The position numbers were made by a program, and so were the translations under genes. This document shows, piece after piece, positions 25,748-31,885 of a stretch of DNA of 32,010 nt; within the stretch, counting starts at the first letter, position 1; the number at the start of each line of letters is the position of its first letter. The stretch is from contig CANBWJ010000005.1 in NCBI GenBank assembly GCA_947373115.1, positions 1 to 32,010 on the forward strand, read 5' to 3'. The notes beneath the pieces were generated by a model. That model worked only from the letters and a program-made list of their open reading frames with translations, was not told where the DNA came from and did not search any database. This stretch comes from Opitutia bacterium (GTDB lineage: Bacteria; Verrucomicrobiota; Verrucomicrobiia; Opitutales; UBA953).

Positions 25748-26497
25748 TTAGCGACGGCTCTTACCACCACCCGAGGGGGCTTCACCTTCGGGACCTTCGG
25801 CTTCTTCCGCGCCTTCATCTTCGTCCCACTTTAACTTGCCCTCGAATTCCTTATCGAGCTTCTCGTCATCTTCCACTTCAGGCAAATCAGCGATATCTTC
25901 CGCCGCCGAACTTGCACGTGCTGGCTTATCGTCATCATCATCTTCACCAGGAACTTCGTGACCTTGTGGTACGAATTCTAAAATGTCGGTAATTTCTTCG
26001 AACGGGTGAATGTCGCGTCCTTCAATCATGGCCTGGTTGCGCAATTCACTGAGCTGTTCATCCACGTCTTCAATGGTGAGCTTTTGTTCGAGCTTAATGG
26101 TGTCGTTGATTAACTTTACCCGCAGACGCATGATATGCTCTAAGAAGTCAGCGTAAGAACCCTTGTCCCCGTCCTTGATGTTCGGGAGGGCGAAGAGTTG
26201 CTCTTCGGAATCTAAAATGTGTTCGGCCACGCGTGCGAGACGCACAACCTCATCCTTGTCGCTGATCGAGTGAACTTGGAACGGCACAAAAGCGGCCTCG
26301 AGAATTTCATTCGATAAACCGTATTCGCGCAACGGATCCATCATATCCAAAACCCATGGAAGCTGAAAGGGGTCTAAGATGCCTAAACCGTCTGGCTCGT
26401 AGTGCTTGGGGTCTGAATTTTCTTTCACCCACCAAGTGCCCTTTTCTTTGTTATTACGAATCGTGCACCAAAGCAGCTTAGAGGTCGTGACAGCCAT
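25748..26497 (-). CDS. Hypothetical protein with highly acidic, disordered C-terminal tail
   Basis: From internal ATG (complement 26495-26497, MAVTTSKLLWCTIRNNKEKGTWWVKENSD); tail rich in D/E (GEDDDDDKPARASSAAEDIADLPEVEDDEKLDKEFEGKLKWDEDEGAEEAEGPEGE). Confidence 0.75.
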   Translation of the reverse strand: MAVTTSKLLWCTIRNNKEKGTWWVKENSDPKHYEPDGLGILDPFQLPWVLDMMDPLREYGLSNEILEAAFVPFQVHSISDKDEVVRLARVAEHILDSEEQLFALPNIKDGDKGSYADFLEHIMRLRVKLINDTIKLEQKLTIEDVDEQLSELRNQAMIEGRDIHPFEEITDILEFVPQGHEVPGEDDDDDKPARASSAAEDIADLPEVEDDEKLDKEFEGKLKWDEDEGAEEAEGPEGEAPSGGGKSRR

Positions 26498-26613
26498 GGG
26501 TGGTTGATTTGGCGAAGTTCTCGTTGGAGTCAAGAAGGGCAATTTTTATTCCTTTTTAGGCCAACCCCTCCTTCTCCGCTTTCCTTCTAAGATTTCACCC
26601 GTACGGTGAGGGA

Positions 26614-28212: not shown

Positions 28213-28307
28213 CTGTTATTGAGTATATTCGATATCACCAAGATAGCAATGAGTAGGTGGAGATTGACGCTCCTTGCGTCCCCCTGAAAAAGGCTTTTCT
28301 TCATACC

Positions 28308-28988
28308 ATGCCCAATCCGCTAGAAAAACCGTCTTACGGGTCACGCCTAGGACATAATTTCCTGACCGGCATGTTCCTAGTCCTACCCATCGGACTCACG
28401 TTCTACGTGGTTTCAATCTTGGTTGGACTCATCGCCGCACCCGTTCAATCCGTCCTGCAAACCTTGTTGCCGATTGTCCTCAAAGATTCGGGCTACACAC
28501 CTGATTTTTCGTCCGGCCCGATGTACGGCGCCTTGGTACTCGTCTCTGCCCTCATCATGGCGGTGATACTGATCAGCCTCGGTTGGCTTTCGAAACGAAT
28601 CTTCGGTCGACTGTTTAAAGCCTGGTTTGCCTTCATCATCGAACGCATGCCCGGCTTGGGGGCACTTTATAATACCATTAAACAAATGGTCGATGCCCTC
28701 AGCGGTCGTAATAAAGACACGTTCCGTCGCGTGGTGCTTGTCCAGTATCCCCGAGCTAATTGCTGGAGCATCGCCTTCGTCACTCAAGAAAATCCTGAAA
28801 CCCTCTCTAATGCCATCGGCCAAAAAGTGGTGAATGTGTTCGTACCCTCTGCACCTGCACCGACCGCTGGCTTCGTCCTCCAAGTACCCGTCGATGAAAT
28901 TAAAGAAACTAAACTCACCGTCCCTGAAGCCATCGGACTGCTCATGAGTTTCGGTGCCGTTGTTCCACAGTCTAAGCTTAAGAGTTAA
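28308..28988 (+). CDS. DUF502-family membrane protein
   Basis: Start reset to ATG 28308 (MPNPLEKPSYGSRLGHNFLTGMFLVLPIGLTFYVV); IPxxGALYNTIKQMVDALSGRNKDTFRRVVLVQYPR and NVFVPSAPAPTAGFVLQVPVDEI. Confidence 0.9.
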   Translation: MPNPLEKPSYGSRLGHNFLTGMFLVLPIGLTFYVVSILVGLIAAPVQSVLQTLLPIVLKDSGYTPDFSSGPMYGALVLVSALIMAVILISLGWLSKRIFGRLFKAWFAFIIERMPGLGALYNTIKQMVDALSGRNKDTFRRVVLVQYPRANCWSIAFVTQENPETLSNAIGQKVVNVFVPSAPAPTAGFVLQVPVDEIKETKLTVPEAIGLLMSFGAVVPQSKLKS

Positions 28989-29591
28989 ATGTCCGCCGCC
29001 ACGCTGCGATGCCTCGTTCTCGGGCGTGACCCCTCAGGCGAATCACACACCCTGCTCACCTTACTTGAACCGTCTCAAGGCTTAGAGCGTTGCCTTATTC
29101 GTCAAACACGTAGCAAACAAACGACCGCACCTGATTTGTTCGACGAGTGTGAAATCACCCTCGAACGCGCCAAAGATGGCGGCAACCGTTTTGCCCGCGA
29201 CTATCGACTGCTCCATCGCTTCTCTGGCATCGCTAAAAATCATCGCACCCTCGAACGCGCCTGTCGCTTTGCCAACATGGTGCGGCGTAATCCGCCGCCA
29301 CCTGAATCCGCCGAAGTCTGCTACCGCATCGCACTCGAGACTTTCACTGCGATGGCCGAACGCCCTCGACCCGATTGTGCTTACTTCAAGGGACTCTGGC
29401 TCATGATTAAAGACGGTGGCTGGCCCGTGCATGAACATTGGCTCGGCAATTTAGGGAGTCGCCAAGCCCAAGCAGCGTCCATTCTCACACAGCCACTCGA
29501 TGCCCAAAGCACCGATGAAGAAGCGGTGACCAAACTTTCGATCGACCTTGAACGCTGGGCCGCTGGGGAAATTCACTTCGTGCTTCCCTGA
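28989..29591 (+). CDS. RecO-like DNA repair protein (divergent)
   Basis: 200 aa; N-terminal OB-fold-like ATLRCLVLGRDPSGESHTLLTLLEPSQGLERCLIRQTRSKQTTAPDLFDECEITL...RDYRLLHRFSGIAKNHRTLERACRFANMV, a RecO-like pattern, with helical C-terminus. Confidence 0.58.
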   Translation: MSAATLRCLVLGRDPSGESHTLLTLLEPSQGLERCLIRQTRSKQTTAPDLFDECEITLERAKDGGNRFARDYRLLHRFSGIAKNHRTLERACRFANMVRRNPPPPESAEVCYRIALETFTAMAERPRPDCAYFKGLWLMIKDGGWPVHEHWLGNLGSRQAQAASILTQPLDAQSTDEEAVTKLSIDLERWAAGEIHFVLP

Positions 29592-31885
29592 TGCGGATCG
29601 ATATCAAAGCCAAACGCATCGAGGTCAGCGCCCAAGAGTTTGCCACCTTCCGTCCGGGACCAGGCGCCGGCGCCAGCAGCTCACCCTGGCGTGCCGAAGC
29701 GGGCCGACAATGGCACGAAACCATGCGCCTGCAGGCCACCGCCGAAAATTCGGCGTGGGTTTTTGAACAACCCAGCCAGTGCGAAATCTCCGCCTTGGGC
29801 TGGAAGATTATCGTCACGGGTCGCACCGATCAACAATGCTTCACCGACGGCCGATTGCACATTCGGGAAATTAAAACCGTTATCACGACCCTACCCCGTC
29901 GTCCCGAATTCCTGCAACAACGCTACGCCCACCACTTCCTGCAACTCGGCACCTACTGCCACGCCGCTCGCTTTCTTCCGAGCATTCAAGAAGTCATCGG
30001 CGAACTCGTTTTTGTCGACCCCACCGACGGCACCAAGCAAACCGTGCCGTTACCCGCAAGCGCCGAAAGCGATTTACTCAAACAGGCTGAAGTCATCGCC
30101 GCTCACGCCGAAAACCGCCGGGCAAGTCACGCCCGCCTCCTCAACCTCCCACACCGAATTCCATTCAAGGAACCTCGCCCCGAATGGCTTCAGTCCTGCG
30201 CCGACCTTGAACAGGCAACCCTCGAATCGCGCCAACGCCTCATGGTCGCACCGACTGGCTTTGGTAAAACTTCTGCCGCCCTTCATCACGGGCTTTCCTT
30301 ATTACGCAGTGGTAGCGTAGGCCGACTGCTCTACGTGACCGGTAAAGGCACTGGTCAATTACAAGTCTTATCCGAACTGCGACGCCTTGCGCCATCCACT
30401 GAATTGCGCGCCCTCGTTCTTCGTCCTCGTGCCGAGCACGAGGTCGATGGCATGCCCGATGACATCGAAGAGATTCGCAAGAATTGGGCCCGCGCCGCCA
30501 TTGACCCCCAAGCCCTCCTCGCTGACGGCGCTGAGCTCCAACGTATTCGAGAGATCGGAAGGATTGCGGGCGTTCCTCCATGGGACATCACCAAGGCGAT
30601 GCTGGCACATGCCGAAGTGATTATCTGCGACTACAATTACGTCTTTTCACCGCGCAATCGCGCCGCCCTCGAGACCATTCCGGGATGGAACGATGGTGAT
30701 ACGATGTTGATTGTGGATGAAGCGCATAATCTCCCCGAGCGCGCGGCTGAGTGCCTCTCGATTCGCGATGATGCCAACGCAGCTGCCGTCTTCGCGCACA
30801 CGCTCCTGCAGTGCAAAGCCCCCGAGGCCTGGTGTCAGACGACTCAAGCCTGGGCCGATTTTTTACAACGTCTCCCGAAAGCCGATGCACTTTCACCCGA
30901 CGATCGCATGGAGGCGATGACACTCGCCGAGAAACTCGCCCGACTCGGCGAAACTTTCCCTTTAGACACCGACAACTTACCCGAGCCCGCACGCAATGCC
31001 GTTTGGAATGCAGCGCTCTGGTTAAAGCGACTCGAAGAAGCCGACCTCGGTTGGCTCCTCTGGTCTCCCAAAGCGGGCCAACTCAGCCTCGACTGCCTCA
31101 CCGCCGCCAAAGCGACCGGTGAACGCCTAACAGCGTTTTCCCATTTTCTACTAATGACGGCCACCCCAGGCCCCAAAGGTTCATTAGCCAACGAATGCGG
31201 ACTGGATCCCGATTTATTACACCGCACCGATGCCCTAGCACCTTGGCGCCACGGCGCGTACACCGTGGCGATTGATGGTCGGGTCGACACCCGACTGAAA
31301 ACTCGCGACAGCCATAGCAACCGTACAGCCGTTGCCCTCATCAAACTTTCCAACGAGGGTGCCGTCGCCGCCTTCTTCCCTTCTTATAAATACGCCGAAA
31401 CCATTGTAACCGAGATTCGGCGACTCCACCCCGAAGCCGCCATCGCCCTTCAACCCCGCGGACTCGGCCCCGATGGCACCGCCCGCTTCGTCGAAGATGC
31501 CCTCAAGCCCTCCGTCATACTTTGCCTCATCCTCGGCGGTTCACTGGGCGAAGGCGTCGATATGCTCGGCGGAAAAATTCGTTCCGCTGTCGTCGTCGGA
31601 CCCGCCCTCCCCGAAGTCAACGCCCTGCAAGAAGCGCGTCGCAAAATGTTCGTGGAAGATGGTGCCGAAGACCCCTTCGCCCTCGCCTACATCCGCCCCG
31701 GCATGCGCAAAGTGAATCAAGCCCTCGGACGCCTAGTCCGCGCCCCAGGCCACACGGCTCGCGTGCTCCTGCATTGCCGTCGGTTCGCCGACGAGAGTTA
31801 TAAAAACCTCCTCTCCAACGAATACGGCGAACCCGAAATCGTGACCGACGACGAGGGGTTCAATCAGTGGATTACGAAGAGCTGA
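29591..31885 (+). CDS. PD-(D/E)XK nuclease - DinG/XPD-family (DEAD_2) helicase fusion
   Basis: 764 aa; N-terminal GRTDQ (D80), REIKTV (E93/K95), QLGTY (Q118/Y122) nuclease motifs; Walker A VAPTGFGKTSAAL, DEAH in MLIVDEAHNLPERAAE, motif III FLLMTATPGP, motif V GSLGEGVDMLGG, motif VI NQALGRLVRAPGHTARVLL. Confidence 0.87.
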   Translation: MRIDIKAKRIEVSAQEFATFRPGPGAGASSSPWRAEAGRQWHETMRLQATAENSAWVFEQPSQCEISALGWKIIVTGRTDQQCFTDGRLHIREIKTVITTLPRRPEFLQQRYAHHFLQLGTYCHAARFLPSIQEVIGELVFVDPTDGTKQTVPLPASAESDLLKQAEVIAAHAENRRASHARLLNLPHRIPFKEPRPEWLQSCADLEQATLESRQRLMVAPTGFGKTSAALHHGLSLLRSGSVGRLLYVTGKGTGQLQVLSELRRLAPSTELRALVLRPRAEHEVDGMPDDIEEIRKNWARAAIDPQALLADGAELQRIREIGRIAGVPPWDITKAMLAHAEVIICDYNYVFSPRNRAALETIPGWNDGDTMLIVDEAHNLPERAAECLSIRDDANAAAVFAHTLLQCKAPEAWCQTTQAWADFLQRLPKADALSPDDRMEAMTLAEKLARLGETFPLDTDNLPEPARNAVWNAALWLKRLEEADLGWLLWSPKAGQLSLDCLTAAKATGERLTAFSHFLLMTATPGPKGSLANECGLDPDLLHRTDALAPWRHGAYTVAIDGRVDTRLKTRDSHSNRTAVALIKLSNEGAVAAFFPSYKYAETIVTEIRRLHPEAAIALQPRGLGPDGTARFVEDALKPSVILCLILGGSLGEGVDMLGGKIRSAVVVGPALPEVNALQEARRKMFVEDGAEDPFALAYIRPGMRKVNQALGRLVRAPGHTARVLLHCRRFADESYKNLLSNEYGEPEIVTDDEGFNQWITKS

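Follow-up and report, generated by a model that had tools for sequence, protein, structure and literature searches.

An EndoDinG-type nuclease-helicase without iron-sulphur cysteines, encoded beside a RecO-like gene in Opitutales

The locus and its two enzyme modules

The window analysed here is the whole stretch of 32,010 nucleotides that begins contig CANBWJ010000005.1 of an Opitutia bacterium. A 764-aa ORF with an ATG start lies at 29591-31885 on the plus strand. The features of the locus, with the evidence for each in brackets, are as follows.

28257-28988, plus strand: DUF502 membrane protein gene, the first of a conserved DUF502-recO-EndoDinG cluster (PF04367, E 2.8e-29; conserved order)
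28989-29591, plus strand: RecO-like gene, 200 aa (RecO_N, PDB profile match, conserved adjacency)
29591-31885, plus strand: EndoDinG-type nuclease-helicase, 764 aa (ORF, Pfam, AlphaFold2, Foldseek)
29684-30016, plus strand: PD-(D/E)XK nuclease core, aa 32-142, with H42, E59, D80, E93, K95, Q118 and Y122 (AlphaFold2 topology, conservation, PDDEXK_1 in orthologues, Foldseek, phrog_1706)
30248-30271, plus strand: Walker A / motif I APTGFGKT, aa 220-227, in helicase motor domain 1 (sequence, conservation)
30410-30598, plus strand: pseudo-Fe-S region, about aa 274-336, cysteine-free in the window protein (alignments; folded in the AlphaFold2 model)
30716-30727, plus strand: DEAH box / motif II, aa 376-379 (sequence, conservation)
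31718-31741, plus strand: motif VI QALGRLVR, aa 710-717, in Helicase_C_2 motor domain 2 (sequence, Pfam, conservation)

The RecO-like gene and the nuclease-helicase gene overlap in the sequence TGATG (29589-29593), where the stop codon of the first (TGA, 29589-29591) shares its last letter with the start codon of the second (ATG, 29591-29593). The preliminary description of the locus had mentioned neither the RecO-like gene with this overlap nor the missing Fe-S cysteines described below.

The preliminary description had proposed a Cas4/RecB-like nuclease fused to a complete DinG/XPD-type helicase, and sequence, structure models and fold searches all agree with this. The helicase is indeed complete, with its motifs at the residues listed above. 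Both Helicase_C_2 (5.7e-23) and DEAD_2 (1.8e-11) scored above the Pfam cut-off, and the best solved relatives of this part in PDB searches were DinG/XPD proteins. K226 of Walker A, the DEAH box and the motif VI arginines were invariant or had a single exception among 128 Opitutales and up to 36 distant homologues. The same was true in the nuclease domain for G38, H42, E59, G77, D80, E93, K95, Q118 and Y122. The distant homologues in the alignment came from Clostridia (Firmicutes), Bacillus, Geomonas, Paraburkholderia and Lokiarchaeia, and identity outside the genus was 24-40%. Judged from these alignments, strong purifying selection acts on both active sites, that of the nuclease and that of the helicase.

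The nuclease motifs GRTD80Q, R-E93-I-K95-T and Q118-LGT-Y122 were found exactly where the preliminary description had placed them. Across about 127 Opitutales orthologues D80, E93, K95 and Q118 did not vary, and nearly all of the roughly 33 distant homologues have them too. Two residues that had not been mentioned, the motif-I histidine H42 and E59, were also invariant. The alpha-beta-beta-beta-alpha-beta core looked for by structure prediction is present in the AlphaFold2 models, which were made for the full-length protein (pLDDT 88.9, pTM 0.88, 24 aligned sequences) and for the N-terminal domain alone (pLDDT 91.0, pTM 0.84). It consists of a helix (32-52), three strands (57-68, 71-85 and 88-96), a second helix (105-126) and a last strand (134-142). 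Helix 32-52 carries H42, and helix 105-126 carries Q118 and Y122. Among the first three strands, the first has E59 at its start, the second contains D80 and the third E93 and K95.

The N-terminus of the window protein alone gave no Pfam match, and a phmmer search of the PDB with this single sequence gave none either; a profile was required. PDDEXK_1 (PF12705) matched 15 of 18 orthologous N-termini (best 1.4e-9), and genome searches placed it above cut-off at the N-terminus of, for example, the orthologues in genomes G049 and G146. The nuclease core itself was matched by phrog_1706 (E 0.0013). With the N-terminal domain as query, Foldseek returned the DinG structure 9KQH, then Cas4 4IC1 (E 1e-7), human EXO5, MGME1, AddA/AdnA, RecE and lambda exonuclease. 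The fold and the order of catalytic residues are those of the Cas4, EXO5 and AddAB nucleases, which stand alone or are joined to a UvrD-type motor, whereas the nuclease of the window protein is joined to a DinG/XPD motor. The relationship to Cas4 4IC1 is structural only: the four Fe-S cysteines of Cas4 were looked for in the nuclease domain, and aa 1-190 contain no conserved cysteine.

Family placement and the iron-sulphur site

Nuclease-helicases of this architecture are already known. EndoDinG is a subgroup of DinG-like proteins defined by an N-terminal endonuclease domain, with DinG of Bdellovibrio bacteriovorus HD100 as its representative, whose endonuclease activity is mentioned as unpublished (Cheng 2025, PMC11981726). 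As in EndoDinG, the window protein has an N-terminal PD-(D/E)XK domain with the residues H, E, D, E and K in the same order (H42, E59, D80, E93, K95), followed by MD1 and MD2 with Walker A, DEAH and motif VI. The structural relatives reported for EndoDinG, namely Cas4, EXO5, AddA and RecE, are also the same (PMC11981726). EndoDinG as published has a conserved CCCC Fe-S motif, in contrast to the window protein and its family, in which all four ligand positions lack a cysteine. In the accessible part of that description, pseudo-Fe-S domains are listed only for CasDinG, CasDinG-HNH and some ExoDinG (PMC11981726). Since the N-terminal domain is the naming criterion, the window protein is classed from its sequence as a cluster-less variant of EndoDinG and not as a typical member.

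The closest solved structure, 9KQH (released 2025-12-03), contains Finegoldia magna DinG together with ssDNA and ADPNP. Its profile match covered positions 7-759 (E 2.3e-79), and Foldseek aligned it end to end with the full-length model (770 columns, E 6e-40), ahead of XPD and DinG structures. It is a full-length homologue with 20% identity in the Foldseek alignment, and its nuclease motifs align with those of the window protein. F. magna DinG keeps cysteines in the Fe-S region, unlike the window protein. The literature search found no accessible paper describing 9KQH and no published biochemistry for it. The preliminary description knew of no well-characterised member of this architecture; this is no longer current, as the EndoDinG group has been named (PMC11981726) and the structure of a full-length homologue solved. 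The crystallised sequence of 9KQH reads GRAAG at the position of D80, where nearly all homologues have GR-x-D, and is probably an engineered nuclease-dead mutant.

Other nuclease-helicases are less similar. ExoDinG (Staphylococcus aureus DinG, 8ZEF/9II8) also carries a nuclease N-terminal to a DinG-like motor and a pseudo-Fe-S domain. Its N-terminus is a DEDDh 3'-5' exonuclease, in contrast to the PD-(D/E)XK fold of the window protein. Motors of the DNA2 type come from another helicase superfamily. DNA2 and the Bad helicase-nucleases, as described, share the single-chain nuclease-helicase logic, and the Bad enzyme contains an Fe-S cluster (PMC7430649).

Four cysteines were present in the Fe-S region of distant homologues and outgroups and of Opitutaceae, and three, with the first ligand lost, in several Opitutales families. 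Most Opitutales outside the family of the window have three or four Fe-S cysteines, and some members of other families have none. Intermediates with one or two ligand cysteines were not clearly seen in the alignment; one row (L143) has a shifted cysteine and a few rows align poorly. H283, which adjoins the first ligand position, is kept in nearly all Opitutales whatever their cysteine state. The idea that this histidine replaces the first cysteine was dropped because the four-cysteine Opitutaceae have the sequence EHC, which places the first ligand one residue after H283. The cysteine-free state required 5-7 changes on the trees. Several independent losses of the cluster are nevertheless not claimed, since a single origin was not rejected (AU p = 0.605).

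The iron-sulphur cluster of a typical DinG family member is, by this pattern of ligands, absent from the window protein. One possible explanation is that its loss removed helicase activity and left an ATPase that merely positions or regulates the nuclease. E. coli DinG and archaeal XPD are stated to lose helicase activity when the Fe-S motif is disrupted (PMC12345164), and all four cysteines are missing in the family of the window. However, every helicase motif is still invariant and the pseudo-Fe-S region is predicted to fold. Cluster loss alone also does not imply lost unwinding, since the cluster-less SaDinG and PaCasDinG keep their helicase activity via a pFeS domain (PMC12345164). A motor that no longer unwinds is therefore unlikely, and by analogy with these cluster-less DinGs the pseudo-Fe-S domain, folded in the model, has probably kept its contacts with DNA.

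Gene neighbourhood and inheritance

The gene is chromosomal, with secA, lnt, pyrD, DUF502 and recO in its surroundings, and the scanned part of the window encodes housekeeping metabolism. An acidic 264-aa ORF without a Pfam family lies beside pyrD (25748-26542, minus strand) and is 79-86% identical in same-genus relatives. The ORFs found by inspection downstream in relatives were unremarkable (permease, ABC ATPase and lysyl-tRNA-synthetase-like).

The RecO-like protein is short and divergent, and is kept across Opitutales at about 22-40% identity. It matched RecO_N (E 0.004) and TIGR00613 (E 0.018), both below cut-off, and its best PDB profile match was RecO 8ab0 (E 0.016). The RecO assignment is thus weak for each single sequence, and the gene is the best RecO candidate in the Opitutales genomes examined. 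Standard annotation may list recO as missing in these genomes.

The linkage of the nuclease-helicase to this gene is conserved. Among 90 assessable Opitutales loci left after dereplication, 56 have a RecO-like gene immediately upstream in the same orientation, and 6 others have RecO elsewhere. The remaining 28, each with at least 1.4 kb of upstream sequence, show no RecO, and none of the 22 assessable loci outside Opitutales had a RecO-like gene upstream. The RecO-like gene is thus not a universal partner. In the accessible part of the EndoDinG description no mention of a recO neighbourhood was found (PMC11981726). The cluster-less branch and the pairing with recO are the new points here.

In one family (f20) and some others, recO and the nuclease-helicase are separated by a single gene of about 280-320 aa. 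At five loci (L011, L017, L021, L024, L029) its product is apparently secreted, with the common core TDA.S.KIIE.H...LGG. A similar gene precedes the nuclease-helicase at L023, where recO went undetected.

The nearest named relatives were mostly from freshwater Opitutae/Opitutales MAGs. A match was found in 97 of 177 Opitutales genomes (85 of the 135 good-quality ones) and a homologue in 50 of 289 genomes sampled across the phylum. Where a genome had more than one match, these came from a single gene in pieces or from fragments on broken contigs; the gene thus appears to be single-copy. It is dispensable: one genus of the same family (g2) lacks it, as do most of the smallest genomes listed. Identity declines smoothly with kinship across Opitutales. 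Phage and plasmid records gave distant matches only, with none above 30% identity among the matches listed. Vertical descent with losses fits this pattern better than a mobile defence gene does.

Most Opitutales genomes also carry AddAB or RecBCD-type genes. Adjacent ORFs of AddB and AddA size occur in the same genus (e.g. G128:C13:129744-132315). In the genome of the window, whose assembly is only 82% complete, the search gave no RecB-type match. A replacement of AddAB/RecBCD by EndoDinG was dropped as an explanation because the two coexist in most genomes of the order. The nuclease-helicase would therefore add to the main end-processing machine and not substitute for it, and there is no unique resection gap for it to fill.

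Another possible explanation for the protein is a role as an anti-phage or anti-MGE effector, in which ATP restrains the nuclease-helicase and foreign ssDNA releases it. This is modelled on Hna (9YHN), a single chain with a DinG/XPD-like SF2 helicase lacking Fe-S and a PD-(D/E)XK nuclease. Hna confers phage resistance, showing that a cluster-less protein of this kind can be a defence effector (PMC13381803). It appeared among the Foldseek matches to the full-length model (rank 43), and the PADLOC typeIV_DinG model matched the helicase part (2e-53). However, Hna is distant (13% identity) and has the reverse domain order, an N-terminal helicase followed by a C-terminal nuclease. The window gene is single-copy and spread across Opitutales, its neighbours include a recO-type gene and no defence genes, and its phage and plasmid matches are remote. 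An Hna-like defence role is improbable on these grounds. The preliminary description had suggested repair or anti-MGE defence; of these, repair agrees with the genomic evidence, which lends defence no support.

A third explanation is that the nuclease fold is catalytically dead and serves only to bind DNA. The failure of Pfam to recognise the window N-terminus on its own would fit this. It is very hard to reconcile with H42, E59, D80, E93 and K95 being invariant in about 127 orthologues, as an inactive site would not need them, and we give this explanation little credence.

Membership in type IV CRISPR systems, as a CasDinG, is the least credible explanation and was rejected on genomic context and architecture: the PADLOC score (PDLC01439, aa 190-743, window 30158-31819) speaks for it, but CasDinG is described in the accessible text without a PD-(D/E)XK N-terminus (PMC11981726), 9KQH and archaeal and eukaryotic XPDs outrank CasDinG structures in Foldseek, and in the flanks examined no csf genes were noticed and the identified neighbours were housekeeping genes. 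This PADLOC model appears to derive from a broad set of DinG-like sequences. Since it matches the helicase of a chromosomal EndoDinG so strongly, defence scans probably give false CRISPR type IV calls in Opitutales.

Proposed role in repair

We consider it likely that this EndoDinG is a single-chain repair enzyme, in which a metal-dependent PD-(D/E)XK nuclease precedes a DinG/XPD-type 5'-3' ssDNA motor; the activities of both modules are inferred from their domains and intact catalytic residues. A housekeeping role in repair is favoured over anti-phage defence because the gene is single-copy, chromosomal, apparently vertically inherited and coexists with AddAB/RecBCD. The linkage to recO suggests processing of gaps, flaps or ends before RecA loading or annealing. 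The motor would load where gaps, flaps or resected ends expose single-stranded DNA and be driven 5'-3' along it by ATP, while the attached nuclease would cut the displaced or threaded strand. The RecO-type partner encoded upstream could then promote RecA loading or annealing on the single-stranded DNA produced.

A more specific and tentative possibility is that the cluster-free EndoDinG of Opitutales is the dedicated, operon-encoded and redox-insensitive partner of a divergent RecO and prepares gaps and ends for RecO and RecA. If true, EndoDinG would be a processing enzyme of the RecFOR pathway that works alongside AddAB/RecBCD. The EndoDinG family has been named and is functionally almost uncharacterised, and the conserved recO-EndoDinG pair provides its first pathway hypothesis. 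The orthologues with four, three and no cluster cysteines also form a natural series that bears on the purpose of the Fe-S cluster in XPD/DinG helicases.
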